This document shows, one piece after another, positions 3,486 through 32,372 of a DNA stretch of 32,372 nucleotides (its first letter is position 1; every line of letters starts with the position of its first letter). Both the position numbers and the translations under genes were made by a program. The notes under the pieces were generated by a model. The model saw nothing but the letters and a program-made list of their open reading frames with translations, ran no database searches and had not been told where the DNA came from. Source of the stretch: a virus; the IMG/VR virus record IMGVR_UViG_3300033144_001600, positions 1 through 32,372 of that record, one strand, 5' to 3'.

Positions 3486-3838
3486 TTCCGCATTTCCATC
3501 GGAATAGCGTCTACGAAATCAATCAGCTTGGTGCCGCGGTCCCTGACTACTTTGAGCCGCCATGGCTTACGCGCGGGCGGATCCTTGTCGAGACTGGTAC
3601 GCAGGCCCTCGATGACCTGTGAGTTTTGATCCACCACCCTGCCAAGCTGCTCGTTGATCACGTTCATGCTGGCCTGCATCGAGGCGAACGGGATCGAGTT
3701 ATCCTGAACTGGAGCAGGAGCAGGCGTCGGAGCCGCTGGTGCCGGCGCAGGCTCTGGCTCGGGCTTTGGAGCCCGCCTGACCTTACCGCCCTGCAGCGCC
3801 ATACGATTCAGTGCAGCTTCTGAGATCTTATCAGCCAC
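3482..3838 (-). CDS. Small protein with Pro/Ala/Glu-rich linker (118 aa)
   Basis: It starts at a GTG (3838-3836) that overlaps the end of the 1021-aa gene by 8 bases and ends in an ATGA overlap with the next gene. Residues 1-20 form a short helix. Residues about 22-46 are a low-complexity Pro-Ala-Glu linker. Residues 50-85 are a predicted coiled coil (NVINEQLGRVVDQNSQVIEGL), and the end is a basic strand-rich tail. Such bipartite helix-linker proteins are common minor virion or assembly factors in phages, but no family is recognised. The alternative forward frame over the same bases has no ribosome site and is an antisense shadow. Confidence 0.7.
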   Translation of the reverse strand: MADKISEAALNRMALQGGKVRRAPKPEPEPAPAPAAPTPAPAPVQDNSIPFASMQASMNVINEQLGRVVDQNSQVIEGLRTSLDKDPPARKPWRLKVVRDRGTKLIDFVDAIPMEMRK

Positions 3839-6800: not shown

Positions 6801-6896
6801 ATCCGGTTCAGGAATAGAAGCCGTGGCAACACTTGAGCGCGATGGGATATAGGGCTCAAACTTATTCCAGTCCAGTTGGTTGGATGGTGTACTCAC
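3831..6896 (-). CDS. Very large internal-virion/ejection-type protein with ddrB-like ParB domain (1021 aa)
   Basis: It starts at a GTG (6896-6894) that shares a G with the upstream TAG. Residues 1-100 are acidic and helical. Residues about 115-350 hold several Gly/Ala-rich hydrophobic stretches and an ATQEFFQSGAEQI...FEGALEAAVAG pattern typical of phage polyvalent and ejection proteins. Residues about 486-613 match the ddrB-like ParB superfamily domain: a YQFKSSTDAQG start, the hallmark YAVDGHQRAKLA (VDGHQR at 548-553), then AALKNIGEQTGSPVDAAKVIRE. The rest is long, charged and helical with KKKRPAQ-type basic linkers and an AFSRRPAYEESPDRY segment. Size, Gly/Ala hydrophobicity and position after two coiled-coil virion genes suggest a protein packaged in the capsid and injected with the DNA. 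The injected role is inference. Confidence 0.85.
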   Translation of the reverse strand: MSTPSNQLDWNKFEPYIPSRSSVATASIPEPDDVEWADYAKSVLGGTANLAQSVGWLTRQLGGEDVGRAIEEIGSDAVDHWHDALSDPAKAEISKQIVRKSEDGSGMFGYEWGDASLSTVGLMGAESLIGTAGGMGVGAGLTKVLQLFANPFGRAVLTRAATAQAAHGGLVGRGVSQAAKKLKLVDSVLGGTGFGLGEGAIGGISAGSSVYDQIMSLKPEKLLENDRYKQIFESTDDSMSELERHQYAADTVANEASTAAGWQSGLTTALLGAPMGIYFGRILGGARLSSTLPRGIATGAAGEATQEFFQSGAEQIISNINRQPYEPDLDTFEGALEAAVAGAAAGGLMGGGFGAFGAKGSRAEIAGEERQEAIDLHQTIKEIGGPVGMAARVGATKKVSRKALNNVIHDYTTGVLSEERAVEIIEALEVEADGGPEAQNTGPDPGPALGTDEQIEAEKNKPIPSEEEAAERMELDIGKPTQIETVDASSLLIDAPTYQFKSSTDAQGVSQALKGVKEFQSYKAGLAIVHERDVSEPTPTGGGARYAVDGHQRAKLARLALEAGQPRSELAMAAVIYKESDGHTAESVTRLAALKNIGEQTGSPVDAAKVIREMGPAGAEEIANLPPNHALVKQGNAIAKLSDEAFELAVNEVIPQAHSAIVGEMVADPDLQPAIMDVLRQLEPASANIARGIVAQAITAGATQETTEDLFGEQTVTESLYLERAKVLDSAQRLARRDKATFKTLTDKESAITGTGENKLDRAANEAKISDANRALTTLATVANTKGPVSDALTKAAERVKAGEKPGAVAKDFLATALPAIEGRSADGKKAGKDKRAAKKKRPAQDLDLGDAVPAFSRRPAYEESPDRYSTPKTKAMRDFLAKESDRVVGLSIEDDGVFIYTDSEQWVDDAGAGTFRADTETAAIKLFNEVVQKAEVDDAATQRKEALDKEIARRDRIRNTGQLDMFSRAGKPLSEIRLSREFEVEETGELVSVDQSAEILLRQLDKRSNVVEQLRGCIGG

Positions 6897-9593: not shown

Positions 9594-10054
9594 GCTGCTT
9601 CCTCCGCCGCTTCTGGCTCTCTCACGGCTGTATAGATAGCGCCTACCGGGGCCAGTCCGACCCGCTCGTATAGCTGTCTTGTTCGTTCCACGTCGATCCC
9701 GGATGATTGTGCCATCGTGACTTCGATCACGTTTGGCAGGCTCCACGCCCATTTAACAAACTGCCTGATCATGCGGTATCCATCCCCCGGCGTCTCCGCG
9801 TAGGTAATGATATCAGTAGCGCTACGGCTCTTCGAGAACCATAGCGGCACCGCTGCACCGAGTAACAACCCGGTGATCTTGCCATCGTGCTCGGCCACCA
9901 GCGCCATCCCAAAGGCAGAGTTAATGCACTGCCCCAGCGTCTGGCCGGCCGTCAGCGTGTCGATCTTCACGTCAGCATACGGCGTCATCTTAATCAGCCG
10001 CTTGCCCAGCGCAAGAAGCTGTGGCAGATCTGCAACTTGTGCCATCCTGATCAT
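9590..10054 (-). CDS. GNAT-fold N-acetyltransferase-like protein (154 aa)
   Basis: The ATG at 10054 overlaps the upstream stop (ATGA). A second in-frame ATG sits three codons later. The pattern follows the GNAT fold: an N-terminal IRMAQVADLPQLLALGKRL (strand-helix), a central strand pair FGMALVAEHDGKITGLLLG (about residues 48-66) and a final QLYERVGLAPVGAIYTAV (about residues 127-144), the usual YERxGF-like end. The acetyl-CoA loop (R/Q-x-x-G-x-G/A) is degenerate, with DGYRMIRQFVKWA in its place, so catalytic activity is doubtful. GNAT-like proteins are often encoded among internal virion genes of short-tailed phages, where they may be structural. A structural role fits the neighbours, but acetylation of a host target cannot be excluded. 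Confidence 0.8.
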   Translation of the reverse strand: MIRMAQVADLPQLLALGKRLIKMTPYADVKIDTLTAGQTLGQCINSAFGMALVAEHDGKITGLLLGAAVPLWFSKSRSATDIITYAETPGDGYRMIRQFVKWAWSLPNVIEVTMAQSSGIDVERTRQLYERVGLAPVGAIYTAVREPEAAEEAA

Positions 10055-11684
10055 GGTTCGTTATAGACGTTGCCGCCTGCCCCTGTGTCATTCCTATCGT
10101 ACTCGTTATCAAAACCACCATTATCGCCACCAGTACCAGTATCGCCACCAGTACCAGTATCACCACCAGTACCAGTATCACCACCAGTACCAGTATCGCC
10201 ACCAGTACCAGTATCGCCACCAGTACCAGTATCACCACCAGTCTCGCCACTAGTGCCAGTTACATCCCATGTAGGATCCCAGTCCGGATTGCTGCTGTAC
10301 ATGCTGGCGATCATCGCAATATCAGATTCGTAGTTTCTACGCGCTACAGCGACGGCGTTGTTTTGCTGGGCGGCGGTCAGCCCCTGTTGGCCGTAGATGC
10401 TCTGAATCTCTGTAGAGAGTTGACGGTTGCGAGCACTAACCTCAATTAAGTAATTCTGCTGTAGCTGCTCGACAAATCTTTGCTTACTCAGTGCTGCGTC
10501 TACATCTGCTCCCGCCATCAATCTCTCAAGCGCCGCAATATCGGCTTGAGATTGTATGTCAGCGTTGATTCCGCCCTGCGCAATAATCCGATCAAGCGCC
10601 GCAAGGTCTGACTGGGTTTGCAGGTCCCTGTTAATGTCGCCCTGCGCAAGAACACGCGCCAGCGCCGCAAGGTCTGCCTGTGACTGCAGGCCAACATCGA
10701 GTGCGCCTTGCTCCCGTAATCTTTCCAGTGCCGAGGCATCTGCTTGGGCTTGTAAACTAGCGTTGACATCGCCCTGCGCACCAATAGCCTCAATGTTATA
10801 ACTGTGATCCTCGGCCATTCTGGCCAACCACTGCGTATGATCCTGTGCGCTCAGTTCAAGTGCGTTTTCAAGATCAACGGCCGCCAGTTTCAGCCTGTAA
10901 CCATAGTCCTGCTTCATTAGTTCTGTATCAAAGCCAAACTGCTGCAGTAAGCGCTCGGCGTCAATATCGCCCTGCAGTGTGAGTTGCTGCAACCGATGCA
11001 AATTATCCTGTGCAGACAGGTCGAAGTTGTAACCGAACTGCTCTAACTGCAAGCGACTGTTGATGTCGCCTTGCTGGGCCTGTTCAACTAAGTTATTCAG
11101 GTGGTCCTCGGCCATCAGCATTGAATCAATAGTTCCCTGCATTGCCTTCAAACCACCGGCCTGATAGTACTCAGCCTTTTGGGCAGAGCGTCGAGCAAAT
11201 ATATCGGCATCTTGCTGTGCGATAGGCAAGGCGGAATTGATCACGGCCTGACTGGATGCCTCGGCGGCTATATCCGAGTTCTGCAGTCCACGACTATTGG
11301 CATACTGTGATGCCTGCCCGCGAGCCCAGTCGAATAGCAGGTTGTTCTGGTTCAGAAGGCCCTCAAGCCGCCCCTGTACCGTCTGCTCTTCTGTTACCTC
11401 GGGGCCCTTGTCAGCATAGGTCCCTAGCGTATCCGTTATGTCAGCCGTATTTTCCTCAGTGAATAGATCAGTAGAGGCCCCACCACCTACCGGGTCAGTA
11501 AAGCCTGTAGCTGTTTCATCTTTCTGATACTGGTCTTTCTGAACCGTATTGGCAGCCCACCACCTACCGGCCCGGTCATTGCCGTAGACGTATCATCCTT
11601 AACGGACTGGTCTTTTTGAACCACCGGCTGCGCAAACAGCTCGGAGCTATTCAGGGTCTCTTCTTGCGGTATCGTTGTAGGCAT
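10051..11684 (-). CDS. Repetitive coiled-coil internal virion protein, reading frame broken by a single-G deletion
   Basis: An ATG at 11684 with a GAGGA site upstream opens a frame that ends at 11487. A second frame, open from just after 11558 to the stop at 10051, continues the same protein. At 11556-11558 the run reads three Gs, while the second copy of the local repeat has four (11478-11481). Restoring one G gives a single 544-aa product. The body is helical with 22-residue units (QSQADLAALARVLAQGDIN-type), then a (TGTGGD)n acidic Gly/Thr tail and an Asp/Asn-rich end. If the deletion is real, only a product from the GTG at 11244 (397 aa) would be made from the body. Position and composition suggest an internal virion or ejection protein. 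Confidence 0.75.
10123..10248 (-). repeat. 18-bp minisatellite, six copies plus a partial copy
   Basis: The 18-bp plus-strand unit ATCGCCACCAGTACCAGT (fifth-position variants ATCACC...) repeats from 10123 to 10230 without interruption, with a partial seventh copy to about 10248. On the coding strand it gives the hexapeptide TGTGGD. The near-perfect identity of the copies implies recent expansion or ongoing copy-number change. It is inside a coding frame and its unit keeps the frame, so it is not a CRISPR. Confidence 0.9.
10530..10795 (-). repeat. Diverged 66-bp tandem repeats coding 22-residue helical units
   Basis: Four successive protein units of 22 residues start LQAQADASAL, LQSQADLAAL, LQTQSDLAAL and IQSQADIAAL and mostly end in a Q-G-x-[ILV]-[ND] turn. 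The DNA copies have diverged but share segments such as AGCGCCGCAA and GCCCTGCGCA. Twenty-two is two hendecads, so the helices may form a right-handed coiled coil. Looser copies of the QGDIN mark continue towards the N-terminus. Confidence 0.75.
11478..11625 (-). repeat. Two-copy tandem repeat of about 70 bp at the start of the coiled-coil gene
   Basis: Two adjacent copies encode VQKDQSVKDDTSTAMTGPVG and VQKDQYQKDETATGFTDPVG, both ending in the same GGTAGGTGGTGGG DNA stretch. They are similar but not identical, so the duplication is old. The loss of one G in one copy is what breaks the frame. Confidence 0.7.
11487..11684 (-). pseudogene. N-terminal piece of the frame-broken coiled-coil gene (65 aa as written)
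   Basis: This is the part of the preceding gene upstream of the missing G. Its first 43 residues (through TGPVGGG) belong to the intact protein. The last 22 residues, beginning LPIRFRKTS, come from reading on in the wrong frame, which the Arg/Lys-rich composition and similarity lost to the repeat make clear. It has the proper ribosome site and ATG of the full gene. Confidence 0.6.
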
Positions 11685-18367: not shown

Positions 18368-18775
18368 CTACCACCAAGAAATGACAATGTTGATAAACGC
18401 GATGCCATCCGTGGATGCCTGTGTCAACACTACTTCGAGTTGCGTGATGCCTTCGGTTGCAATATCGACTACGCCCTTGCCACCTTGACCGTTATCAAAC
18501 GCCTCGGTCTCCCGGTCCATACTCAGACCGTTAGTGTCGGCCAGCGTCCCGATATTCAGCTCAGCATAGTGAGCTGCATCGCCCGCCGTGCCGATCTCGA
18601 CTTTCGCCGCACCGTCAGTAAACGTCTCGGTACACATGGCATTGATGTCATCAATTCTGCATCGAGACATCCCATCAGGGACAGGAATGGCGAATGCGTC
18701 ACTGCCAGTAGCGCCGAGGTTGTACGAGCCTAGAGAGTAGATTTGAACTCTTGGATTGTCGTAGCTGTTACTCAT
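18368..18775 (-). CDS. Capsid-associated small protein, tandem paralog 2 (135 aa)
   Basis: The ATG at 18775 has a GGGAGGG site just upstream. Longer in-frame starts lie inside paralog 1. It starts SNSYDNPRVQIYSLGSYNLG and ends INIVISWW, and shares about three quarters of its residues with the next gene upstream. The middle is beta-rich with a conserved stretch HYAELNIGTL..., DRETEAFDNGQGGKG, ITQLEVVLT. It lies directly after the major capsid gene, the usual place for decoration or capsid-stabilising proteins. That role is inferred. It has one Cys in the VSRCRIDDIN-type segment and another in MCTETF. Confidence 0.8.
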   Translation of the reverse strand: MSNSYDNPRVQIYSLGSYNLGATGSDAFAIPVPDGMSRCRIDDINAMCTETFTDGAAKVEIGTAGDAAHYAELNIGTLADTNGLSMDRETEAFDNGQGGKGVVDIATEGITQLEVVLTQASTDGIAFINIVISWW

Positions 18776-18785
18776 ATCGCCCTCC

Positions 18786-19187
18786 CTACCACCACGAAAT
18801 AACAATGTTGGTGAAACCGATGCCGGTCGTGGTTGACGTAGTGAGAACCACTTCAAGCTGTGTGATGCTCTCCGTCGCGATGTCAATCACGCCTTTACCT
18901 CCCTGACCGTTGTCAAACGCCTCAGTTTCCCGGTCCATGCTGATACCGTCAGTATCCCCAAGTGTCCCGATATTCAGTTCGGCGTAGTGATTTGGATCGC
19001 CACTGGTGCCGATCTCGACTTTACCGCCAGCCGTGAAAACCTCGGTACACCCCACGTTGATGTCATCAATTCGACACCGTGACACGCCATCAGGAACGGG
19101 GATTGCGAATGCGTCACCAGCATTGGCAAAGTCAAATTGACCAAGACCGTAGGTTTGCACCCTCGGATTGTCGTAACTGTTACTCAT
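18786..19187 (-). CDS. Capsid-associated small protein, tandem paralog 1 (133 aa)
   Basis: The ATG at 19187 follows a GGAGAG site right after the major capsid stop. The sequence begins SNSYDNPRVQTYGLGQFDFA and ends TNIVISWW. It aligns along its whole length with paralog 2, with small indels around residues 20 and 52. The shared core is beta-rich and ends in a Trp pair, a compact single-domain protein without membrane segments. Placement between the major capsid gene and its own copy suggests a decoration or cement protein on the capsid surface. A two-gene set may give hetero-oligomers or two site types. Confidence 0.8.
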   Translation of the reverse strand: MSNSYDNPRVQTYGLGQFDFANAGDAFAIPVPDGVSRCRIDDINVGCTEVFTAGGKVEIGTSGDPNHYAELNIGTLGDTDGISMDRETEAFDNGQGGKGVIDIATESITQLEVVLTTSTTTGIGFTNIVISWW

Positions 19188-21569: not shown

Positions 21570-21971
21570 TTAGTCCTCGATGTCATGTCCCATGTCGTCC
21601 ACCGCACGTAGCTCAGTTTCAGCCTCGCGGGCGGCCTTGAATATAGCATTGACGCTGGCGACAACATCAAAATTAGCGCGCATTCTCTGATGCTCCAGAA
21701 CCAGATCATCGTCAGGAGCAAGGCCAGCAAGTGTTTTGGTTTCGGTCATCAGCGCAAAGAACTCGATGGCGTTTGCCCACATGCCGTACAGCATTGTCCG
21801 CACGACCGCGGAGTTTGCCAGATCCCCTTCGATCTGGAATTTTTTCTGCACTACCTTGAATAGCTCGATCTCTCCCTCTGATTTGAGGTTATCTCTAAGC
21901 TCACGCTCAAGCACGTCATCGCTCATCAACGATGATTGGTCTACGCCGGGGCCTCTGTCTGGCTCAGCCAT
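21570..21971 (-). CDS. Small helical protein between portal/tRNA and scaffold (133 aa)
   Basis: The ATG at 21971 has GGAGAACC upstream, in the 3' flank of the tRNA, and the stop is two bases before the scaffold ATG. The protein is almost all helix (ELRDNLKSEGEIELFKVVQKKF, VVRTMLYGMWANAIEFFALMTETKTL, FDVVASVNAIFKAAREAETEL) and acidic, with no Cys. Small helical proteins at this site in other phages serve head assembly or portal/terminase contacts. I do not recognise its family. Confidence 0.75.
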   Translation of the reverse strand: MAEPDRGPGVDQSSLMSDDVLERELRDNLKSEGEIELFKVVQKKFQIEGDLANSAVVRTMLYGMWANAIEFFALMTETKTLAGLAPDDDLVLEHQRMRANFDVVASVNAIFKAAREAETELRAVDDMGHDIED

Positions 21972-21984
21972 GTGGTTCTCCGTT

Positions 21985-22059
21985 TGGTTGCGCTGGCAGG
22001 ACTTGCACCTACGACCTCCGGGTTATGGGCCCAGCGAGCTGCTACTGCTCCACAGCGCA
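21985..22059 (-). tRNA. tRNA-Met (CAU anticodon), initiator-type (fMet-like)
   Basis: A 75-base tRNA with encoded CCA folds into a full cloverleaf: 7-bp acceptor stem (TGCGCTG/CAGCGCA), 4-bp D stem (GAGC/GCTC), 5-bp anticodon stem (CTGGG/CCCGG, one T-G pair), 5-base variable loop and 5-bp T stem. The anticodon CAT is at 22027-22025. Initiator hallmarks are three G-C pairs at the bottom of the anticodon stem, A11-U24, and a weak U1-A72 end pair in place of the C1xA72 mismatch of E. coli. Oddities are C33 instead of U33, a 7-base D loop without the usual GG, and G55 in the T loop (TGCAAGT). It fills the gap between the portal stop and the next gene. Confidence 0.9.
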
Positions 22060-22064
22060 TCTGT

Positions 22065-24398
22065 TTATTGAATAGTCTCCGTCATTGACGGAATCATGCC
22101 ATAGCGATCCCTTGAAATCACGCCAGCCTTATCTTCCCCGGGCAGGTTAAACGCCCCTGATTCAGCCGGCGGCGTCTTGTCTTGGAGTGCCAGTTGGTAG
22201 TTGCGATCAGCCTCTTGGATCTCATGGCTCAGCGCCTCACGCTGCAAGAACAATTCCTCGCGCTTGATCTTCGACAGCTCGACCTTCACCATGCCGTTGA
22301 TCTGTTCGAGGCGATCCTTCATCTGCTCGATAGCGGCCTTGAGATTGCCATCGGCATTGGCCAGCATCATCTTCGCCTCGATAGCCATCTGCTCTTTCGC
22401 AAGGTTTCCTTGGATCTTCATATTCTCCAGTTCCATCTTGCCCTGCATTTCGGCCTGTTTCTCGGCCTGCTTGGACTCGATTATCTGCATGAGCTGCTGC
22501 ACCTGACCCTCCAGCTCTGCGATCTTCGGATCCTGCTCGTTGTCCGACAGGGATGGATAGAAGCGCACACCATCAGCATAGCCAAGGGCCCCGAATACTT
22601 CCTTCACCAGCTCGGCACCGTCCACCTTCTCAGCCAGTTGCGGCGCGAACTCTCGAATAGCACCCATGCCAAAGGCCAGCCGCTGCACCCGTTTCTCCGG
22701 GTTGGTCGCATCGAAGCCAACATTGACCTTGACCCTGATCGGCTGGGTGATCACATTCAGCACCGCCTGAATATCATCGACGCCGGCACGGTTGGCGGCC
22801 ACATGTAATACCGCCACATCAGTCTCATAGGCAGCTTCCAGCTCCACGATCTGTCGTAGCACCGGCTCGTACCACGTCTCAGAGAAGGTCCGGATATCAA
22901 ACTCGGTGATCATTGAGGCGCCAGCGCCCATCATTTCCATGCCGCCAACAGTCTTGTTCAGGCTGCTGTTTGACTGCACGGATCCTGAATTGAAATCACC
23001 CAAGATATCGTCAATATCCACGTTCAGACGATCCTGCTCTTCGTAGCTGGACCCGGTTACATCGCGAGTCTCCTGCACCTTCACGTCAGTGCCCGGGTTG
23101 CCCATCATGGTGACGGATCCGGCGACGTTCCTGATCAGGCTGCGAATATCAATGCCGGCGCCGCGCTTGGCAAAGTACCGCTTGTTCAGTGCCAGCTTGA
23201 CGTTATCGAGTCTCAGGTTAGCGATATCGTTGGTCTCTTCCTGCAGGCCATCGATCAGCTCAGGCTTGCCGGCCGGGTAGATCTTATGCGGCTCGATGTT
23301 GGTGTAGCCCATCACATACGGACGGTTGCCGGTCAGGTAAACCTCCGGAAGCGGCAACATGTCAGATAGTATGATCTCGCTGCCAATCGTATCCCAGCAG
23401 TAATCCTCGCCACCGATCCGCATGATGTGCTTGTGTACCCAGACGCTCTGGTGTGCGCGCACCATCGTATCGTTGTCGTACTTGTCGATACGATCACCCT
23501 CGCGGGCTTTCCTGACTGAATCCCAGTCCTGATGAATCGAGGCCGCCAGCATTCCCTGCACAACAGGTTTGTAATATGGCTTGCCAGTAATTGGGTTATT
23601 GCGCTGCTGCAGCTCCTGAATGGAATCGATGTACATCGGCACCATTTCGATCACGTATGGGCTGGTATTGACAGGATCCCGCCAGTCGCAGGCCGGGTCG
23701 AACCGCAGATTCTCAATCGGTACGTTATAGATGACCGGGCGATCCTCCAGCGGCTCTTCCTCTTCAACGGTCTGGCTATGTTCGCCGCCCATTTCATCAA
23801 GGTAAGTCTCTTCGTACTGGGTTTTCTTGGTGACGAACCGCCACTCTTGCTTGGTGATGCAGCAGCCGGTTGTATCGGCATCGGTCGCCGCACCGATCAC
23901 AGTCTGATACCAGTATGTCTGCTTCTGGTCGAGACGGAAGTTGGCCAGTGCCATGTGGATCTCAGCGGCCAGTACCTGCTGTGGATCCGCGTCATTCACT
24001 GGTGAGCAGTGCAATACATCCGAACTGGAGAAGAACGCCTTGGCCACGGACGCACTCGATTTCCTGATCGCAGTACGTGTTTTCGGGCGGAAGATCTTGG
24101 ACTTCTTGCGGTACTGCTCGGTGTAGTACTTCGAGCCCGGGGGGTGCTGGTTGTTGAATGCTCTCAGGTTGCGCTCGATCTGGTGGCGCATTGAGCTATC
24201 CCACCACGTCTTTGAGCTGTAGAACGCCTCCCGGGACAGGGTTATCAACGTATCCTCGTACTGCCGGTCGCTATCCTGTGGATCCTTTTCAAAGTGATCC
24301 ACCATGCCCACAGACTCGGCCGGGAGCGTAGTGCGGTCGCCCTCAACTACCGGGCTGAAATGTTTGTCGCCTCTAACTAGCGCCGTCGAGCCCGCCAT
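22065..24398 (-). CDS. Portal protein (777 aa)
   Basis: Twelve copies form the channel through which DNA is packaged and leaves the capsid. The ATG at 24398 has a GGAGAGG site and lies inside the last codons of the upstream gene. The protein has the large podovirus-portal layout. An N-terminal wing leads to the stem/clip region; typical segments are KTWWDSSMRHQIERNLRAFNN, KIFRPKTRTAIRKSSASVAKAFFSS, IENLRFDPACDWRDPVNTSPYVI, and DIANLRLDNVKLALNKRYFAKRG followed by IRNVAGSVTMMGNPG. Residues 627-740 are a long coiled coil (ELEGQVQQLMQIIESKQAEK onward), the barrel-like C-terminal extension seen in large portals. The neighbours are pre-portal small genes and a tRNA. Confidence 0.93.
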   Translation of the reverse strand: MAGSTALVRGDKHFSPVVEGDRTTLPAESVGMVDHFEKDPQDSDRQYEDTLITLSREAFYSSKTWWDSSMRHQIERNLRAFNNQHPPGSKYYTEQYRKKSKIFRPKTRTAIRKSSASVAKAFFSSSDVLHCSPVNDADPQQVLAAEIHMALANFRLDQKQTYWYQTVIGAATDADTTGCCITKQEWRFVTKKTQYEETYLDEMGGEHSQTVEEEEPLEDRPVIYNVPIENLRFDPACDWRDPVNTSPYVIEMVPMYIDSIQELQQRNNPITGKPYYKPVVQGMLAASIHQDWDSVRKAREGDRIDKYDNDTMVRAHQSVWVHKHIMRIGGEDYCWDTIGSEIILSDMLPLPEVYLTGNRPYVMGYTNIEPHKIYPAGKPELIDGLQEETNDIANLRLDNVKLALNKRYFAKRGAGIDIRSLIRNVAGSVTMMGNPGTDVKVQETRDVTGSSYEEQDRLNVDIDDILGDFNSGSVQSNSSLNKTVGGMEMMGAGASMITEFDIRTFSETWYEPVLRQIVELEAAYETDVAVLHVAANRAGVDDIQAVLNVITQPIRVKVNVGFDATNPEKRVQRLAFGMGAIREFAPQLAEKVDGAELVKEVFGALGYADGVRFYPSLSDNEQDPKIAELEGQVQQLMQIIESKQAEKQAEMQGKMELENMKIQGNLAKEQMAIEAKMMLANADGNLKAAIEQMKDRLEQINGMVKVELSKIKREELFLQREALSHEIQEADRNYQLALQDKTPPAESGAFNLPGEDKAGVISRDRYGMIPSMTETIQ

Positions 24399-24903
24399 TG
24401 TCCTCTCCTATTCGTATCGCTATTTGTCGGAACACACTACCATCTGGCTGCACGTTATCCTTATGCACGATTGCCGCCTTGCCCTCTTCAATCGCTTTCG
24501 TTAGATCCTTGTCACGCTGTTTCTTTTGGTCCTTCGATAACCTGTCGGTGATATCCGGGATGAAGTTACCGCGTAGATCCACCATCTTATTCTTGAGCAG
24601 GCTGCGCTTGTACTTGCCACGCCTGATACCGTACCGCTCAAGGATCTCACCACCAGCCATTATGGCAGTCTTGTCGGGTGTGTCCTGCATTTCTTTAATC
24701 TTGACCGTGTAGCCCCACTCACCGGACAGCCTGAGTGCGTAGATGTAGAACACGCCGCCCTCTTCATCCGGATTAAGGCACCACCACCAGCCCGGATATT
24801 TTTTCTCCAGTGCGGCACCCGCGCGCTTGGTCACGTTCTCCAGCGCCCCGCTAACCTCAAGGGTCTTTGGATCCAGAACGTAAGTTGATTCGCCTCTTTT
24901 CAT
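24373..24903 (-). CDS. Conserved-type small protein directly upstream of the portal (176 aa)
   Basis: The ATG at 24903 overlaps the upstream stop (ATGA), and the last 26 bases overlap the portal gene. Residues 35-70 are aromatic and strand-rich (PGWWWCLNPDEEGGVFYIYALRLSGEWGYTVKI). Residues about 78-165 are basic and helical (GRGKYKRSLLKNKM, DRLSKDQKKQRDKDLTKAIEEGKAA). Such alpha/beta proteins directly before the portal are frequent in this phage type and could assist portal or terminase. I know no defined activity. Confidence 0.75.
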   Translation of the reverse strand: MKRGESTYVLDPKTLEVSGALENVTKRAGAALEKKYPGWWWCLNPDEEGGVFYIYALRLSGEWGYTVKIKEMQDTPDKTAIMAGGEILERYGIRRGKYKRSLLKNKMVDLRGNFIPDITDRLSKDQKKQRDKDLTKAIEEGKAAIVHKDNVQPDGSVFRQIAIRIGEDNGGLDGAS

Positions 24904-25115
24904 TGGTAAAACTTCCGCTCATTGGGCCATGTGTAATCAGCTATATCTGGCGTCCCACGGTTATACACGTCAGCGATGGATTTGGCATCTATACTCCTGA
25001 ACCCCGGCCGCAGAATGGGCAGCACCGGCTGAACAATGCCAGCATCACCGTCAAGATCGAAAGCCGACGAAGAAAACGCCAAAACACTAAATGCGGCGGA
25101 GTCAAAGGCAGCCAT
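24900..25115 (-). CDS. Small protein with repeated AFxxxAF motif (71 aa)
   Basis: The ATG at 25115 overlaps the upstream TAA (TAATG), and the stop overlaps the next ATG. The N-terminus carries spaced Ala-Phe pairs (FDSAAFSVLAFSSSAFD), a pattern seen in short phage structural peptides. The rest is PILRPGFRSIDAKSIADVYNRGTPD, probably a short fold. The unbroken coupling with its neighbours supports it as a real gene. The function is unknown. Confidence 0.7.
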   Translation of the reverse strand: MAAFDSAAFSVLAFSSSAFDLDGDAGIVQPVLPILRPGFRSIDAKSIADVYNRGTPDIADYTWPNERKFYQ

Positions 25116-25612
25116 TATGGACTACCTCTAAATTTATCAGCATCGATACCAGTACCAATAAGCAGCGTGTCGTTCATGTACTGAGCGTTCGCATCCAGCT
25201 TGCCGGCGACGGTAAATATAAGTTGGTCGGTTTTTGCCTGAACGACGGCAACACCTGCATTATCAGGAGCGACCGTGTTTGCACCATTGGTGCCGCGCAT
25301 GTCTGTGTTGACAGTGACCGTACCAACCACATAATTACCAGTCTCGAATAGCTCATGCTGCAGTAGTTGATCGGTCATGCCACCGGCCTGCACCAAGAAC
25401 ACCATAGCCTCCGTTACGTTTCCAGAACCGATGGTCATGTCTTCATCGAGCAACAGCGTGTAAACGCCAGTACTACCAAGCTCTATCACAGTCGGAGTGG
25501 TCATCGGAGTAAACGCGCTCCCATTCCTTGACCGATTGACTGTGAAGCCACTCAGCCCGGATGGGCCGAAGAAATAAACGACCTGATCTATTACGCCAGA
25601 TGCAATTCTCAT
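25115..25612 (-). CDS. Beta-rich structural protein of the pre-portal group (165 aa)
   Basis: The ATG at 25612 has AGAGG 5 bases upstream. Residues 1-85 form an Ig-like beta domain (VYFFGPSGLSGFTVNRSRNG..., ELGSTGVYTLLLDEDM). Residues about 100-150 contain TDMRGTNGANTVAPDNAGVAVVQAKTDQL, a helical linker pattern widespread in phage fibre and tail proteins. It has no signal peptide, unlike the three genes upstream, with which it shares the G-V-Y beta domain type. It probably belongs to a fibre or neck appendage. Confidence 0.75.
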   Translation of the reverse strand: MRIASGVIDQVVYFFGPSGLSGFTVNRSRNGSAFTPMTTPTVIELGSTGVYTLLLDEDMTIGSGNVTEAMVFLVQAGGMTDQLLQHELFETGNYVVGTVTVNTDMRGTNGANTVAPDNAGVAVVQAKTDQLIFTVAGKLDANAQYMNDTLLIGTGIDADKFRGSP

Positions 25613-25620
25613 GTCAACCT

Positions 25621-26634
25621 CTACCGGAAAGGATCACAACCCGGGGCTGGGATCAAAATATAAGTGTTTGTGGATACGGCCTGTGTTGCGGCTGGCGTGA
25701 AGTTCACCGTATCACTGCCCGGGGTAAAGCTCGAAATACAAAATGTTTGCCCCAAAATTGATCCATCGGTAAACACAACCGCGATATTCTTGGCCCAATA
25801 ATTAGCATCAGCCTCGGTCAGCGCAGCATCAACAAAAGAGGTCTGGTTGCCGCTATCTGCTGTCCCCTGCAACACAACCAGCTTATCCAGACCAGCATCG
25901 ACTATCGCCGTATCCGCCGCCGTAGCGAGGTCCACAGTAGAAACGTCATTCAACGCAGCGACCAAGGCATCTACATCATCAACTGCTTTACCGGCCGCCC
26001 CAACATGGATCCTGACAACGTCAGCCGGGGCTACCGTGAACCCGCAAGCAGAATCATAAGTAACGGTTTTACCTGCTCCAACGTAGTCAGTAATGGTCTT
26101 GACACATTCCTCAGTGCCGCCAACAAACTCGATGGTCCCAAAGTTATAGGCATCGTTGTTCGATGCTCCCGCGGTCAAGGTGATGGTTGTTGTTGTCGGC
26201 GCCGTGGCAACTGTTGTCTCGTTCATGTTGCCGGCTTGCCGACTGGTCATCAACGTGTCGGTGCCATTACGCAGATCTTTGAATCCAACCGACTCTACCG
26301 CATAGCACTCTTTCCTTGGCAGCGTGCCGGTGATATTTGTGAACACGCAAATATGATCGTCTGCCGTGGAGTCTGTTGCATTGTAAGTGACGGCGTAAAC
26401 CCCATCACCAAGATGCGTGGCATCGGTTGTGTCGCTCTTGGCCGCACATGAGCCGCCGTCCTGACACACTGTGAACTCAGCATCTGCAATAGGCGCCAGT
26501 CCAGTCTCGGCAGTTGCATCGACTGAATCAACAAGCGGGCCAAACTCCAACACCTGACTTGCTGTGGCAGGCTCGATTGTTTGCGCGCTTGCCAGCATTG
26601 GCATCAGTGCCAGAAGGAATAATAGTCGTTTCAT
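25621..26634 (-). CDS. Exported virion-domain protein with Sec signal peptide (337 aa)
   Basis: I chose the ATG at 26634, one base after the upstream stop. The frame is open to 26829 but that part lies inside the neighbour. It starts with a clear signal peptide (MKRLLFLLALMPMLASAQT, cut after ASA). After it come a beta domain containing GDGVYAVTYNATDS and a DLRNGTDTLMTSRQAGNMNETTVAT linker. Two copies of an Ig-like domain follow, with the pattern ...YNFGTIEFVGGTEECVKTITDYVGAGKTVTYDSAC and ...NYWAKNIAVVFTDGS..TFCISSFTPGSDTVNF. Each copy holds Cys that can pair, and eight Cys are visible in all. Equivalent domains in phages lie in fibres. The exported location is inferred from the signal peptide. 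Confidence 0.8.
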   Translation of the reverse strand: MKRLLFLLALMPMLASAQTIEPATASQVLEFGPLVDSVDATAETGLAPIADAEFTVCQDGGSCAAKSDTTDATHLGDGVYAVTYNATDSTADDHICVFTNITGTLPRKECYAVESVGFKDLRNGTDTLMTSRQAGNMNETTVATAPTTTTITLTAGASNNDAYNFGTIEFVGGTEECVKTITDYVGAGKTVTYDSACGFTVAPADVVRIHVGAAGKAVDDVDALVAALNDVSTVDLATAADTAIVDAGLDKLVVLQGTADSGNQTSFVDAALTEADANYWAKNIAVVFTDGSILGQTFCISSFTPGSDTVNFTPAATQAVSTNTYILIPAPGCDPFR

Positions 26635-26635
26635 A

Positions 26636-27385
26636 TCAATTACCCTGTTGATAATATTCGTAAGCCAGTGGTGCAATAGTGCCGCCAGAGGTAAGGTCTT
26701 CTGCATTGAACCAAGTAATCGCAGGATTTTGTGTGCTGCCGATATGCACTCCCGGCTTACCCGCAGTAACGATTCTATTCGCTGACGAGTCCGATAAATT
26801 AGTAACAACCTGCGAATACCCACCGCCATCTAATTCAATCCAAGCGTTGAGTGTCACCGTAGCACCAGTACCTTCAACTTGCAGTTTCAACTTTATTACG
26901 GTAGATCCATTAACCCCGTTCGCAGTATTAAACCCTGTATCAGAGTCCAGCGAATTAAAAGAGCCACTGTCAAGCCGAAGTAAAGTCCATCCATCACTGC
27001 CACGAATACGGAAGATGTAACAGTCTCCCGAAGTATAGTTAGGCGTAGCGTCACATCGAACTGCCGAACCAATTCGGTCGGAAGCCCCAGTACCCCCCGT
27101 TACTGCCTCAATTTCAGTAAAATAGTCTGTCTCAGAGTTGGCGTCATCAATGACACTCACTGATAGTCCTGAACCAGTAGTAAGCACTAAAGTATCGGTT
27201 GCTGCTTCCACGTCTAGGTCTAATGCCTGAGTATCTGCCACCCAAGAGCCGCCCGTATCTTTGGTGTGCGCATCTAAAGCTGTATCACTGGCCTCCGTAA
27301 AGGTATCTGTAGCCATAACCGCCGCGAGCGAAATCGCCGGAAATAGAAGTAAAAACAGTAAGGGAATGAATAGAAGTTTACGCAT
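26636..27385 (-). CDS. Exported lectin-like protein with Sec signal peptide (249 aa)
   Basis: The ATG at 27385 abuts the stop of the upstream gene. Residues 1-22 (RKLLFIPLLFLLLFPAISLA) form a strong signal peptide with an SLA-A cleavage site. The mature part is a single beta-sandwich of the concanavalin/lectin type (FTEIEAVTGGTGASDRIGSAVRC, GDCYIFRIRGSDGWTLLRLDSG, VIKLKLQVEGTGATVTLNAWIELDGG), with two Cys 14 residues apart. Such domains bind glycans or sit in phage fibres. A phage-made lectin exported to the periplasm could act on the host surface, for instance in blocking superinfection, but no evidence here separates that from a virion role. Confidence 0.8.
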   Translation of the reverse strand: MRKLLFIPLLFLLLFPAISLAAVMATDTFTEASDTALDAHTKDTGGSWVADTQALDLDVEAATDTLVLTTGSGLSVSVIDDANSETDYFTEIEAVTGGTGASDRIGSAVRCDATPNYTSGDCYIFRIRGSDGWTLLRLDSGSFNSLDSDTGFNTANGVNGSTVIKLKLQVEGTGATVTLNAWIELDGGGYSQVVTNLSDSSANRIVTAGKPGVHIGSTQNPAITWFNAEDLTSGGTIAPLAYEYYQQGN

Positions 27386-29613
27386 CAGAACGTCACCGTT
27401 TCGTCCGACACACCGTTACTGGCGCTACCGACCGAAGTGCAATCAGCGAAGTGCGGGCTACTTGATATGCTAAGTATGTCTGCAATAATTACATCCGTGG
27501 CTGGGGCTGAAATAATGAACGGCTGCACCGTCAAGTCATTCATCAATGCGTTCGATACCGCGCCACCATCGACATCGCTACCAGTAAGGTTTGTGGTATT
27601 GCCGTAGCCGTAATTTTGATCTCTTGTGCCACCAAACGATCCGGATAAGCCGTTGGCATTTATTAACAAATTACAAGTGAAATCCCCGGTCTGGCCACTG
27701 GTCGCTTCGAGCCAAGTGTCCACGGTCTTGATCGTATTGAACGCCCACTCGTTGAGGTCGTTCGTATTGGCTGGATCCCACTGCTTGAATGCGTCCGACA
27801 CCCCGCTCGTATGCGTGATATCTTCGGCGATATTGCCAATGTAGGACCAGTTATCTACATCAATACCGGCGGAGCCGGTATGCTGAATGAAGTCGGCCAT
27901 GTCCCAAGAAAGATTATTGAGAAAAAGTACATCCGCCATTTCCTGACCATCACCTGTTCCAGCAGCAGCACCCGAATTGCCACTACCCCCAGAACATGAC
28001 GCAACGGTTGGCCTGAAACCGAATATCATGTTGCCTTCGATGCGGATAATTTTGCTCTTACTGGTTTCTCTGGCACCACTGTTTGCTTGTTTAAGCTCTA
28101 TGGATTTTTCAGCACAGGCATGAGTGCCGCTAGGATTTGGCGTGCCATCTGAATCTGTATAGGCGTCAGAGTTTACATAGAACGAATTTCCTGCAATCAC
28201 GGTGCCTTCAAGATCACCACCCGCTTGAAATTGCACTGAATGCGACGTCATGTTCCACGCTTCGTTATTAACAACCCTAGTGCCATTAACACCTTGTCCG
28301 GGCGTAACAAAGTCTGCTTCCTGTGAGCCAGAAGTCACATCCATAGTGGCAACATTATCTTGCACAACGAAGTAATCTGAACCCTGAGTGATGTTCATAA
28401 ATGTCGATGGAACATTACTGCTGGCATTGAATGAACTATAAGCAATCGCCCAATTATCACAGCCACCGGCACCGCTGGTTGAAAACAATGCTGTCTGGTT
28501 GCTGTGATCGGGAACCGTCAAACCCCATATCCACACATAATCATCATCAGCGGTAACACCGCTTTGGTCGCAATTAAACTCGCCAATACGCGCCTGATCA
28601 CCCGTTGCTAGTAAAAAGGGATGTGTAACAAGATTATCAACGTGGCGAATTACTTTGGGGATAATTTGTTTGCACGTACCACCACTCGTGTAGGTCGTCC
28701 ACGCCGGTTGCAAAGCAGTGCCAGTAGCATCTTCTCCTTGCAAATCCACCGTGTCAGGATCGATTACCGTGACCCGGAAATTTCGCCAGTGCAACTGCCA
28801 AGTACCACCAACCGCATCGTCACACCAGATATAATCGTTCGTGCTCCAACCGTGCGACGATGAAAAATCAACACGTACCGGATCGTTGAACGTTATCGCG
28901 CTGATGCTGATCTCACTACCAGCAGAGCCACCATCTGTGATGTTCATCAAACCTTTGACGGTGTTGTGATTGTCCGATGACAGGCAAACGACTTGATTGC
29001 CCGAATTGTTGACCTTGGCCCAAGTGGAGTCGCCCAGCGTTACCGTCGCATCACACGGAAAATCAGTAATGACAATCGGTATGCCGTAATCCAACCCGAC
29101 TACAGGATTCGAGCCAGTACCCGTTTCGTTGCCGCCTGTGGTGCCAGTTCGCGGCGTGCCGAACATATCCCGTTCATAAATTGTGCCGAGTGCCGGTAAC
29201 GACGACACTACAATCGAAAACGCACTCGAATCTACCGGCGGATTGGTGCCATCGTCACAACTGAAAACGCAACTCGTTGTGGTCGCTACCGGAGAAGTAC
29301 CATCCTCGTCCAACTCGTCATTGATATTATCAATCGCCATACCAGTTGGTAAGGTGCAGCCCGCCTCATTGACAAAGGTTAAAGGATCATCATCAGGATC
29401 AGAACAATCCATCGCCAGATCATAAGAAGATGCGACACCTTCTGCAAAAACGGGCGCCGGGGTGTTGTTCCAGACAGGCGAATCATTGGGCGGATCTGGT
29501 GAATCTGCAGGAAAGGAATTATTGGTGCCGGGATAGACTTGCGCTTCACAGGCAACACTGAACACAAAAAAACAGCAAGCTAAAAAAGTGTACTTAAAGC
29601 ACGAATTTTTCAT
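27385..29613 (-). CDS. Exported Ig-plus-beta-helix protein with Sec signal peptide (742 aa)
   Basis: The ATG at 29613 overlaps the 14-codon leader stop (CTATGA). The N-terminus (KNSCFKYTFLACCFFVFSVACEAQ) is a basic then hydrophobic signal peptide. Residues about 45-140 match a cadherin-like/putative Ig domain (SPVWNNTPAPVFAEGVASSYDLAMDCSDPDDDPLTF...) with several Cys. From about 330 to 680 short strand-turn repeats (VQDNVATMDVTS, GTRVVNNEAWNMTSHSVQF, EGTVIAGNSFYVN, IIRIEGNMIFGF, DVLFLNNLSWDMADFIQ) indicate a right-handed parallel beta-helix as in polysaccharide lyases and tailspikes. No lyase motif is certain. Large secreted beta-helices are unusual in phage genomes. It is first in its operon, just behind a near-consensus promoter. 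Confidence 0.8.
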   Translation of the reverse strand: MKNSCFKYTFLACCFFVFSVACEAQVYPGTNNSFPADSPDPPNDSPVWNNTPAPVFAEGVASSYDLAMDCSDPDDDPLTFVNEAGCTLPTGMAIDNINDELDEDGTSPVATTTSCVFSCDDGTNPPVDSSAFSIVVSSLPALGTIYERDMFGTPRTGTTGGNETGTGSNPVVGLDYGIPIVITDFPCDATVTLGDSTWAKVNNSGNQVVCLSSDNHNTVKGLMNITDGGSAGSEISISAITFNDPVRVDFSSSHGWSTNDYIWCDDAVGGTWQLHWRNFRVTVIDPDTVDLQGEDATGTALQPAWTTYTSGGTCKQIIPKVIRHVDNLVTHPFLLATGDQARIGEFNCDQSGVTADDDYVWIWGLTVPDHSNQTALFSTSGAGGCDNWAIAYSSFNASSNVPSTFMNITQGSDYFVVQDNVATMDVTSGSQEADFVTPGQGVNGTRVVNNEAWNMTSHSVQFQAGGDLEGTVIAGNSFYVNSDAYTDSDGTPNPSGTHACAEKSIELKQANSGARETSKSKIIRIEGNMIFGFRPTVASCSGGSGNSGAAAGTGDGQEMADVLFLNNLSWDMADFIQHTGSAGIDVDNWSYIGNIAEDITHTSGVSDAFKQWDPANTNDLNEWAFNTIKTVDTWLEATSGQTGDFTCNLLINANGLSGSFGGTRDQNYGYGNTTNLTGSDVDGGAVSNALMNDLTVQPFIISAPATDVIIADILSISSSPHFADCTSVGSASNGVSDETVTF

Positions 29614-29654
29614 AGCACTACCCGCTCAGTGCTTACTGCTCCACCTACGCTCAT
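29610..29654 (-). CDS. Leader peptide of 14 residues upstream of the 742-aa gene
   Basis: ATG at 29654 with a GGGAGA site 5 bases upstream reads MSVGGAVSTERVVL and ends in TGA that overlaps the ATG of the 742-aa gene (CTATGA). It begins about 20 bases after the predicted start of transcription. The strong ribosome site and stop-start overlap would feed ribosomes into the big gene by re-initiation. No attenuator hairpin or rich codon run is apparent. Confidence 0.55.
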   Translation of the reverse strand: MSVGGAVSTERVVL

Positions 29655-29678
29655 ATCGCTCTCCCAGAGGTTCCAGCG

Positions 29679-29706
29679 ATTATACTGCTTTACTTATTGG
29701 GTGCAA
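29679..29706 (-). promoter_or_regulatory. Sigma-70-type promoter for the exported-protein and structural operon
   Basis: On the minus strand TTGCAC (29706-29701), a 16-base spacer and a perfect TATAAT (29684-29679) point leftward. The -35 box and spacer overlap the last codons of the peptide deformylase gene. Transcription would start near 29672, 18 bases before the leader ATG. This is the best-looking promoter of the late block. Confidence 0.7.
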
Positions 29707-30190
29707 CGTCAGCTATGTTGATGCCATTCAGGTGATCGATCTCGTGCTGGATGCAGGCAGCCTGTGCTTTCTTGCCGCCAACCTTGATACAGCCGCCCCA
29801 GCGATCATAGCCCTCGATGGTGACGCGAGCGTCCCGGCCAATCCTGACAGTATGCCCGGGCCAGCTCAGGCATCCTTCGTCACTGTAATAAGTGCCGCCC
29901 CACTGCTTGATGATCACCGGGTCAACGATCTCGATCTCGCAGTGTCCCGGCACCTTGCAGATGATTGCGCGCACCGGGGATCCGATCTGCGGTGCAGCCA
30001 GACCCCAGCCACCGTACTTGTACAGGGTGCGCCACATGTCATCGAATAACATCCAGATATCAATGCCACGCGGGTTAATCTTATCGATAGGATCACAGAC
30101 GAGCTGCAGCCGTGGATCCGGGTAATACAGCAGTGGCAGGGTTGGCTCCGGGCGATGCTGCACGAAATCCTTGACCGATGGACTAGGCAC
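29690..30190 (-). CDS. Peptide deformylase (166 aa)
   Basis: It removes the formyl group from the N-terminal Met of new bacterial-type proteins using a bound metal (Fe2+ or Zn2+). All three family motifs are present: motif 1 GWGLAAPQ (residues 61-68), motif 2 EGCLS (105-109, ligand Cys107) and motif 3 HEIDH (149-153, ligands His149 and His153, catalytic Glu150). The start is a GTG (30190-30188) that overlaps the stop of the regulator gene and has no visible ribosome site, so translation is coupled. At 166 residues it is near the bacterial length, whereas many phage deformylases are shorter, lacking the C-terminal helix. It sits in the same genome as an initiator-type tRNA. Confidence 0.95.
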   Translation of the reverse strand: MPSPSVKDFVQHRPEPTLPLLYYPDPRLQLVCDPIDKINPRGIDIWMLFDDMWRTLYKYGGWGLAAPQIGSPVRAIICKVPGHCEIEIVDPVIIKQWGGTYYSDEGCLSWPGHTVRIGRDARVTIEGYDRWGGCIKVGGKKAQAACIQHEIDHLNGINIADVAPNK

Positions 30191-30606: not shown

Positions 30607-30855
30607 ATGGAACTACAACGATACCTCGACCAAGACAACAAGTACCGCACCGCGATGATCACGGCAGAGGGCCGGATCTGGATGCGGGTCTTGCGTGTTG
30701 ATGATGGCGCGCTCAAGATCGTCAAGCGCCCCATGACCGACCACAAGTACATGACCCCACTACCATGGACCCGCAAGAACAAAGCGAGCCTGCGACGACT
30801 GGCGCGGCGACGTGGAACATCCCGGGCAGTCCGGGCCGCAGTAAAGGAGATCTGA
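30607..30855 (+). CDS. Small basic protein, first rightward gene (82 aa)
   Basis: The ATG at 30607 has AAGGAG 6 bases upstream. The protein begins with a beta-type half (KYRTAMITAEGRIWMRVLRVDDGALKIVKRP) and ends in a very basic helix (RKNKASLRRLARRRGTSRAVRAAVKEI), which suggests nucleic-acid or ribosome binding. Its TGA overlaps the next ATG (TGATG). Expression is from a strong promoter under the operator candidate, opposite to all late genes, as for early phage genes that act on the host. No family is recognised. Confidence 0.75.
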   Translation: MELQRYLDQDNKYRTAMITAEGRIWMRVLRVDDGALKIVKRPMTDHKYMTPLPWTRKNKASLRRLARRRGTSRAVRAAVKEI

Positions 30856-31364
30856 TGAAACTGAACCAACTCAAGGTATCCGGCCAGCATCCGAAGTGGT
30901 GCGGGCCGTCCGCCCTGTCGATAATGACTGGCCGCACTGTCAACCACTGCGCCAAGCTGATCGCTTGGGAACGCAACACGCGGATAGGATGGTTTAGCTG
31001 GTACAAAGGCAAGGGATCCAGTAAGCAAGTCAAGGGCGTAGACAATAGCGAAATGAAACGCGCGCTATCAAAGATGGGCTTCATTATGGAGCGCGTCGAA
31101 ATCCCCCGGCACCACCACCGCCATCAGGTTATGAGCATCAACCCAGATCCGTTCGTAATGCCGACGCTTCACCGCTACATGCGAGAGCGCGGCGGCTCGG
31201 ACTGGAAGGCCGTCATGCTGGTGGAAGTGACCGGGCATTACTTGGTGATCAATCGCGATACCGTCTCGGACAATCACCAACAGGACAAGCACTACACCAA
31301 GCATCGCTGGTCACTAAAGAAGATCGCGCGAGCGTGGATTGTGAAGCGCAAGCCAAAGAGGTAG
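30855..31364 (+). CDS. Papain-like/C39-fold cysteine-protease-like protein (169 aa)
   Basis: I use the ATG at 30855, which overlaps the upstream TGA and has AAGGAG 5 bases upstream. The in-frame ATG at 30765 lies inside the preceding gene. The pattern of papain-like phage proteins is visible. KWCGPSALSIMTG carries the nucleophile candidate (Cys16), the following helix starts with NHCAKLI, and then comes MKRALSKMGF. VEVTGHYLVINRDTVSD carries His128 and an Asp at 135 or 139 that could complete a triad. The tail is basic (WIVKRKPKR). Substrates are unknown. Protein processing, deamidation or transglutamination are all possible within this fold. It sits in the two-gene rightward operon that ends at a strong terminator. 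Confidence 0.75.
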   Translation: MKLNQLKVSGQHPKWCGPSALSIMTGRTVNHCAKLIAWERNTRIGWFSWYKGKGSSKQVKGVDNSEMKRALSKMGFIMERVEIPRHHHRHQVMSINPDPFVMPTLHRYMRERGGSDWKAVMLVEVTGHYLVINRDTVSDNHQQDKHYTKHRWSLKKIARAWIVKRKPKR

Positions 31365-31399: not shown

Positions 31400-31897
31400 T
31401 TATCTTCCCGCACTTTTAAGGGCCCTGCCAGACAGGGCCCTTATTTTATGGTCCCGGTTAAGCCACGCGAACTCCCCGAACTCAACCCATGCCGCGTCGT
31501 CGTAAACCTCGGCCGCTTCCTCGGCGGTCAGGTAATAACCGAGCGACCTGTAGCACAATCTAGCCTGATACCGCTTAATTCTCTTGTGGTCATCGGTCAT
31601 CTTTCTAACGCCTTTGTAGCCACTCACTGGCGCCCGGTTCATCAGGTTCTGCTGGTGGGTGCATATCCTGAGATTGCTGCGGCGGTTATCCAAGCCGTTA
31701 CCATTGATATGATCAATCTCCATCCCTACGGGAGCTGGAAGGATGGCGTTGTGCATCCTTACGTTTTTACCCATTGTTTGACGATAGGCGTATTGCTTAT
31801 ATTTTTGCACAAGAGCCGTCCACTTAACCTCGGCCAAGTGAGCATCGCAGTCATCTATAATCGCCTCAAAGCCGCGTGTTAATTGTATTAAAATCAT
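31400..31897 (-). CDS. HNH endonuclease with AP2-like DNA-binding domain (165 aa)
   Basis: Homing-type nucleases of this class cut DNA and spread their own gene. I use the ATG at 31897. A TTG at 31909 overlaps the terminase stop. Residues 46-90 carry the HNH fold: VRMHNAILP (His49), MEIDHINGNGLDNRRSNLRICTHQQN (Asp62-His63, then the Asn/His finger). Residues about 93-142 match the AP2-like DNA-binding repeat (GYKGVRKMTDDHKRIKRYQARL...GYYLTAEEAAEVYDDAAW). It is just downstream of the terminase, a common place for HNH genes, which can either be parasites or assist DNA cutting for packaging. The last codons are built from the plus-strand terminator stem. Confidence 0.9.
   Translation of the reverse strand: MILIQLTRGFEAIIDDCDAHLAEVKWTALVQKYKQYAYRQTMGKNVRMHNAILPAPVGMEIDHINGNGLDNRRSNLRICTHQQNLMNRAPVSGYKGVRKMTDDHKRIKRYQARLCYRSLGYYLTAEEAAEVYDDAAWVEFGEFAWLNRDHKIRALSGRALKSAGR
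31418..31442 (+). terminator. Strong intrinsic terminator of the rightward operon
   Basis: AAGGGCCCTG / CAGGGCCCTT form a perfect 10-bp stem with a 5-base loop (CCAGA), followed on the plus strand by ATTTTAT. It stops rightward transcription 54 bases after the stop of the papain-like gene. On the minus strand only A residues follow the stem, so it should not stop leftward transcripts. The stem lies inside the last codons of the convergent HNH gene. Confidence 0.9.
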
Positions 31898-31901
31898 ATA
31901 C

Positions 31902-32372
31902 TTAGTCAACTTCTGGTTCGAGATCCGCGCCCATTTCGCCGGCCAGCTTCACAGGCACTGGGTGCGCAAACGTCAGCGCCAGTGCATCGCCGGTATCCGG
32001 GCTCGGCAGTCCACGCTTGGACATATCCTCTTTTGACTCCAGCCGCATACGCATACCAATGTCAAAGTTAAGCATCGGCCCGATCAGATCCTCGAACAGC
32101 TCGTTATTGTCCGGGATGCTGCCGGTCTCCAACCACTTAGCGCAGCGGTGCCAGATCTCGACGCGCGGATTATAGTAAGTCAGCGGCTCCATAACCATCG
32201 AGCGGTCGCCCCAGTAGATCGGGATCACCTGATCGTATCCATTCTGTACCAGTAATAGCCAGACGCCGTGGCCATAGCCAGTGGCGTCAATGAATACGAT
32301 GTCAGGCTCCCACTCGTTGATGGCCTGACCGATGTAGCCGGCGATGACGTTGTGATTGGCATCCTGCAGGTT
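31902..32372 (-). CDS. Terminase large subunit, C-terminal nuclease part (partial, 156 aa)
   Basis: The terminase packages DNA into the head. Its C-terminal RNase H-like nuclease cuts the concatemer. The frame enters from the window's right edge on a codon boundary and ends at TAA. The segment PDIVFIDATGYGHGVWLLLVQ carries an acidic strand (Asp of IDATG). QVIPIYWGDRS is the usual strand after it. The end, MRMRLESKEDMSKRGLPSPDTGDALALTFA, is the classic last motif with the acidic D..DA residues. A short hydrophilic tail follows. The ATPase part lies outside the window. It overlaps the TTG of the HNH gene. Confidence 0.92.
   Translation of the reverse strand, partial: NLQDANHNVIAGYIGQAINEWEPDIVFIDATGYGHGVWLLLVQNGYDQVIPIYWGDRSMVMEPLTYYNPRVEIWHRCAKWLETGSIPDNNELFEDLIGPMLNFDIGMRMRLESKEDMSKRGLPSPDTGDALALTFAHPVPVKLAGEMGADLEPEVD

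Follow-up and report, generated by a model that had tools for sequence, protein, structure and literature searches.

A phage initiator-class tRNA with A18 and G55 at its elbow, read as a compensated variant and as separate from the peptide deformylase of the same genome

The window considered here is the whole of a 32,372-base (32.4-kb) record from an uncultured virus. It encodes what is, judged from sequence, a real and unusual variant of a phage initiator tRNA instead of one member of a recurring pair. The initial annotation had suggested that a phage carrying both an initiator-type tRNA and a peptide deformylase brings with it both ends of the fMet path, perhaps to ease a supply limit late in infection; the class assigned to the tRNA, the intactness of the deformylase and the position of the tRNA in a late gene run have stood, while the pairing as a theme has not. 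The account that seems fairly probable to us is that of a functional phage initiator tRNA produced from a late operon, with a compensated A18-G55 elbow, the deformylase being a separate matter. The features concerned are:

21985 to 22059, minus strand: initiator-class tRNA-CAU with C33, A18, G55 and an encoded 3' ACCA (ARAGORN, Rfam and reading of the sequence)
22065 to 24398, minus strand: SU10-type portal gene, directly upstream of the tRNA (Pfam PF23899, 110.5 bits; PHROG 1216)
21570 to 21971, minus strand: gene for 133 aa, directly downstream of the tRNA, without a family match; it follows the portal gene in contigs L002, L003 and L004 also
29690 to 30190, minus strand: peptide deformylase, a 166-aa ORF with a short C-terminus (PF01327, 120.4 bits; PHROG 2890)

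The one tRNA that ARAGORN finds in the window (21985-22059, minus strand) has a CAT anticodon and passes the Rfam RF00005 cut-off of 29 bits with a score of 54.3. Read on that strand it is UGCGCUG-UG-GAGC-AGUAGCA-GCUC-G-CUGGG-CCCAUAA-CCCGG-AGGUC-GUAGG-UGCAAGU-CCUGC-CAGCGCA-ACCA, with all stems intact, A37, A38 and A73 in place and the CCA encoded. Position 1:72 is U1-A72, a weak pair but not a mismatch, and there is no G1:C72; G2:C71, C3:G70 and A11:U24, which are formylase determinants, are all present, and the anticodon stem, CUGGG/CCCGG, has three consecutive G:C pairs at G29-31:C39-41 (29-41, 30-40, 31-39). Elongator tRNA-Met and tRNA-Ile2 have neither the GGG:CCC stem nor the weak 1:72 pair. 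By established criteria these features therefore make the tRNA initiator class, as first proposed, and neither elongator nor Ile2. It agrees with E. coli tRNA-fMet (metZWV) in the CAU anticodon, GGG:CCC stem, A11:U24, G2:C71, C3:G70, A37 and A73, and differs from it in U1-A72 (C1xA72 in E. coli) and in what are also its departures from the textbook: C33 for U33, which removes the U-turn uridine, a 7-nt D-loop with A18, and G55. C33 had to be given up as a feature unique to this tRNA, with at least 119 viral and at least 117 bacterial or archaeal matches (e.g. Weissella, Leuconostoc) among C33 initiator-type tRNAs. Minimum-free-energy folding of the window tRNA gives no cloverleaf and is not better than that of shuffles (z -0.6); unmodified tRNAs often fail to give a cloverleaf in such folding.

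The tRNA is on the same strand as its neighbours, 5 nt from the stop codon of the portal gene and 13 nt from the next gene, and a promoter search of the tRNA region gave nothing above chance expectation; with such tight co-directional gaps, it is probably cut from a late transcript. Its place inside the portal/head gene run fits the idea of a role late in infection. Contigs L003 and L004, whose portals are ~65% and ~64% identical to that of the window, have a tRNA-CAT in the same post-portal slot, with C33 and GGG:CYC stems, with G18 and U55 kept, and with U1xU72 (L003) or C1xA72 (L004) at the end of the acceptor stem. The slot is without a tRNA in L021, L022 and L025 and also in L002, the closest relative by portal (77%), in whose lineage the tRNA is therefore dispensable. 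A general conserved slot for phage initiator tRNAs was considered and rejected, the neighbours on both sides being diverse and without a dominant family. Nor does standing alone set initiator tRNAs apart: 60-66% of their loci have no other tRNA, and for tRNA-Arg loci the figure is the same (60%). On an unrelated phage contig a C33 initiator-type tRNA is followed directly by a tRNA-Asn (L017, 842-998), and the same pair is present in L026.

Nearly all tRNAs have G18 and U55; the window tRNA is without this canonical elbow pair (U55 being pseudouridine) and has A18 and G55 instead. In canonical tRNA the partner of residue 55 is residue 18, which reaches into the T-loop to pair with it (PMC4810234, PMC7912444), and the near-invariant G18-pseudouridine55 helps to build the elbow gripped by the ribosome, RNase P, RNase Z and CCA-adding enzymes (PMC4810234). 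In samples drawn regardless of bases 18 and 55, G55 and A18 were found in the same tRNAs. Two scans of initiator-type tRNAs fixed one position each, G55 with the D-loop left free and A18 with 55 left free. The former yielded 21 contigs, with A18 in 19 of the 20 readable (L395 is ambiguous, and one contig ends before the D-loop), and the latter had G55 in 19 of 19 contigs; some contigs are on both lists, and the tRNAs of L036 and L090 are identical. Among 257 distinct initiator-type tRNAs, a set in which the 18/55 association is inflated by targeted sampling and kinship, 24 are A18/G55, 228 are G18/U55 and 5 are discordant or unresolved, at least two of these being doubtful readings. The neighbour on which residue 18 stacks, position 57, shifts with the swap from mostly G to mostly A: among viral tRNAs with 7-nt D-loops it is A in 14 of 21 of the A18/G55 form and in 11 of 65 others. 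We read A18-G55 as a compensated replacement of the G18-U55 contact in a subset of phage initiator tRNAs.

Might the partner of G55 instead be nucleotide 20, the D-loop and T-loop forming a short helix (G19:C56, Y20:G55, A21:U54) to which A18 is secondary? Such a helix could form, C20 with G55, in the window tRNA and about half of the class. However, nucleotide 20 is C or U in both classes (11 C, 9 U and 1 A with A18/G55 versus 25 C, 35 U, 3 G and 2 A) and does not follow the swap, as A18 strictly does; the lack of a shift argues against the helix as the reason for G55, and we find this explanation rather improbable. Far less credible still, to the point of being scarcely worth entertaining, is that the gene is decaying and that A18 and G55 are random damage. 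Two normally invariant positions are altered and the closest relative has no tRNA, as decay would have it, but 24 distinct tRNAs have both changes and hardly any has one alone, co-variation that speaks against damage as the cause, and the stems are all intact with the encoded CCA kept. We read the window tRNA as a working phage initiator tRNA, probably expressed late, and not as a decayed gene.

The A18/G55 class is not tied to one form of tRNA or size of contig, with D-loops of 7, 8 and 9 nt, both C33 and U33, and contigs from ~4 to 217 kb. In a tree of viral tRNAs it is scattered, with 22 changes for ~25 tips, support being weak but with four independent pairs on supported branches. Phage tRNA-Met/fMet genes of Janthinobacterium phage Donnerlittchen, Stenotrophomonas phage QDWS359 and Campylobacter phages CP8, CPX and F336 have an initiator-type anticodon arm, as in the window, though mostly in other gene contexts, and that of CP8 shares A18/G55. 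The CP8 tRNA-CAT (L521, 2990-3064) lies between tRNA-Leu and tRNA-Asn and is unannotated in the GenBank record, in which five neighbouring tRNAs are annotated; some tRNA annotation thus misses the class. In bacteria a G55 initiator-type tRNA was found in 0 of 793 genomes (396, 199 and 198; three phyla, Pseudomonadota not included), whereas the matching pattern for the U55 form gave a tRNA in 7 of the 8 genomes to which it was applied. Outside the initiator type, a G55 T-loop is also present in two viral tRNA-His and one viral tRNA-Cys; in the viral tRNA-His(gtg) genes of L443 and L393 the T-loop reads TGC. No description of A18/G55 was found in the open-access papers searched, though an earlier one is possible, at least of artificial A18-G55 tRNAs from laboratory selections; Zagryadskaya et al. 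2004 reportedly dealt with selected suppressor tRNAs. Our broader suggestion is a tentative one, and we would put it at somewhat short of an even chance: some phage initiator tRNAs form a class with A18-G55, and A57 favoured, in place of the near-universal G18-pseudouridine55, a replacement made possibly several independent times; these tRNAs may need no modification by TruB or TrmH, and elbow-recognising host enzymes may read them in another way.

The deformylase, also as initially annotated, appears intact, its motifs GWGLAAPQ, EGCLS and HEIDH corresponding to GxGxAAxQ, EGCLS and HExDH. The solved chains nearest to it are deformylases, including phage Vp16 orf60T, and in catalytic motifs and short C-terminus it resembles the Vp16 enzyme (PMC5591237) and those of cyanophages and huge phages (PMC7162821); its identity to every phage record found is nevertheless below 60%. 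Some 7.6 kb with several genes separate it from the tRNA, and the two therefore share a genome and not one locus. For a wider view, initiator contigs were taken by an anticodon-arm pattern (50 each for C33 and U33, of ~25 kb or more) and searched whole for PF01327; the controls were 50 contigs taken by a tRNA-Arg(TCT) pattern, 0 of 50 having an initiator-type arm. Deformylase was present in one of the 50 C33 and one of the 50 U33 contigs, i.e. 2/100 (95% CI 0.2-7%), versus 5/50 of the controls (95% CI 3-22%), a difference opposite in direction to enrichment (Fisher two-sided p 0.04) between samples that are first-come among the matches listed and not random draws, of contigs that may be incomplete. 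For contigs of at least 60 kb the figures are 2/32 and 5/19 (p 0.09). Among 18 records with related portal genes, many of them short fragments, none has a deformylase, and these include both same-slot contigs and the closest relative. Initiator tRNA and deformylase are found together in at least two more contigs (the L035 and L213 records); in these samples the pair is neither unique nor enriched.

On these counts a linkage of deformylase and tRNA was rejected, and their co-occurrence looks like coincidence. That they form one functional theme, the phage bringing both ends of the fMet path, is accordingly very unlikely: both genes look intact within one 32-kb fragment and have company in the two other contigs, but the control has the higher frequency, the portal relatives have no deformylase at all and the genes are well apart. 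We take the deformylase to be a separate, ordinary phage gene, of predicted activity and not linked to the tRNA. Is the tRNA then there to stand in for host initiator tRNA lost to a nuclease of VapC type, from a defence system or a toxin, with C33 and the elbow giving resistance? VapC enzymes cut tRNA-fMet between A38 and C39 (PMC4105405), and escape from anticodon nucleases has been proposed for phage tRNAs, the anticodon loops of mycobacteriophage tRNAs having changes that are predicted to give resistance (PMC10264068). With C33 the loop of the window tRNA is also changed, but C33 is present in bacterial initiator-type tRNAs too and therefore does not point to escape, A38 and C39 are both retained, and Shigella phages tend to be without tRNA-fMet (PMC10264068); we regard the proposal as unlikely, if the least so of the alternatives. 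A role mainly in punctuation, the tRNA marking where the late transcript is cut so as to part the portal from downstream messages, suits the tight gap between co-directional genes in three contigs. Initiator identity features are kept, however, and are not needed for cutting alone; other phage initiator-type tRNAs adjoin many kinds of gene, and L002 manages without one, all of which makes punctuation as the main role distinctly improbable.

On the preferred reading, of a working initiator tRNA, the tRNA would be co-transcribed with the portal/head genes of a late operon, released from that transcript by host tRNA-processing enzymes, charged, formylated and used at start codons, giving an extra or host-independent supply of fMet-tRNA while structural proteins are made. 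With A18-G55 the host would also have neither a U55 to pseudouridylate nor a G18 to methylate, from which some benefit to the phage might follow. Nature would then have provided, in a strictly co-varying elbow replacement, a ready-made test of what the contact and its modifications are for, and, as the start tRNA works directly in the P site, an elbow test in a P-site tRNA.

Several other features of the window may be recorded. On the minus strand, 18368-18886 and 18786-19187 are close paralogues (MSNSYDNPRVQ..., with similar bodies), a tandem duplication adjoining the major head protein gene; 10051-11244 has a run of GTGGDTG-type repeats in the C-terminal part of its ORF, coded by a tandem DNA repeat; and 3831-6896 encodes a 1021-aa protein that matches parts of very large phage proteins (PHROG 10691, virion RNA polymerase, DarB-like). 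At 30765-31364, on the plus strand and thus against the main gene run, is a sizeable ORF without a Pfam or PHROG match in which HPKWCGPSALSIMTG resembles a cysteine-peptidase motif, and an HNH endonuclease gene (31400-31909, minus strand) adjoins the apparent end of the terminase large subunit gene.
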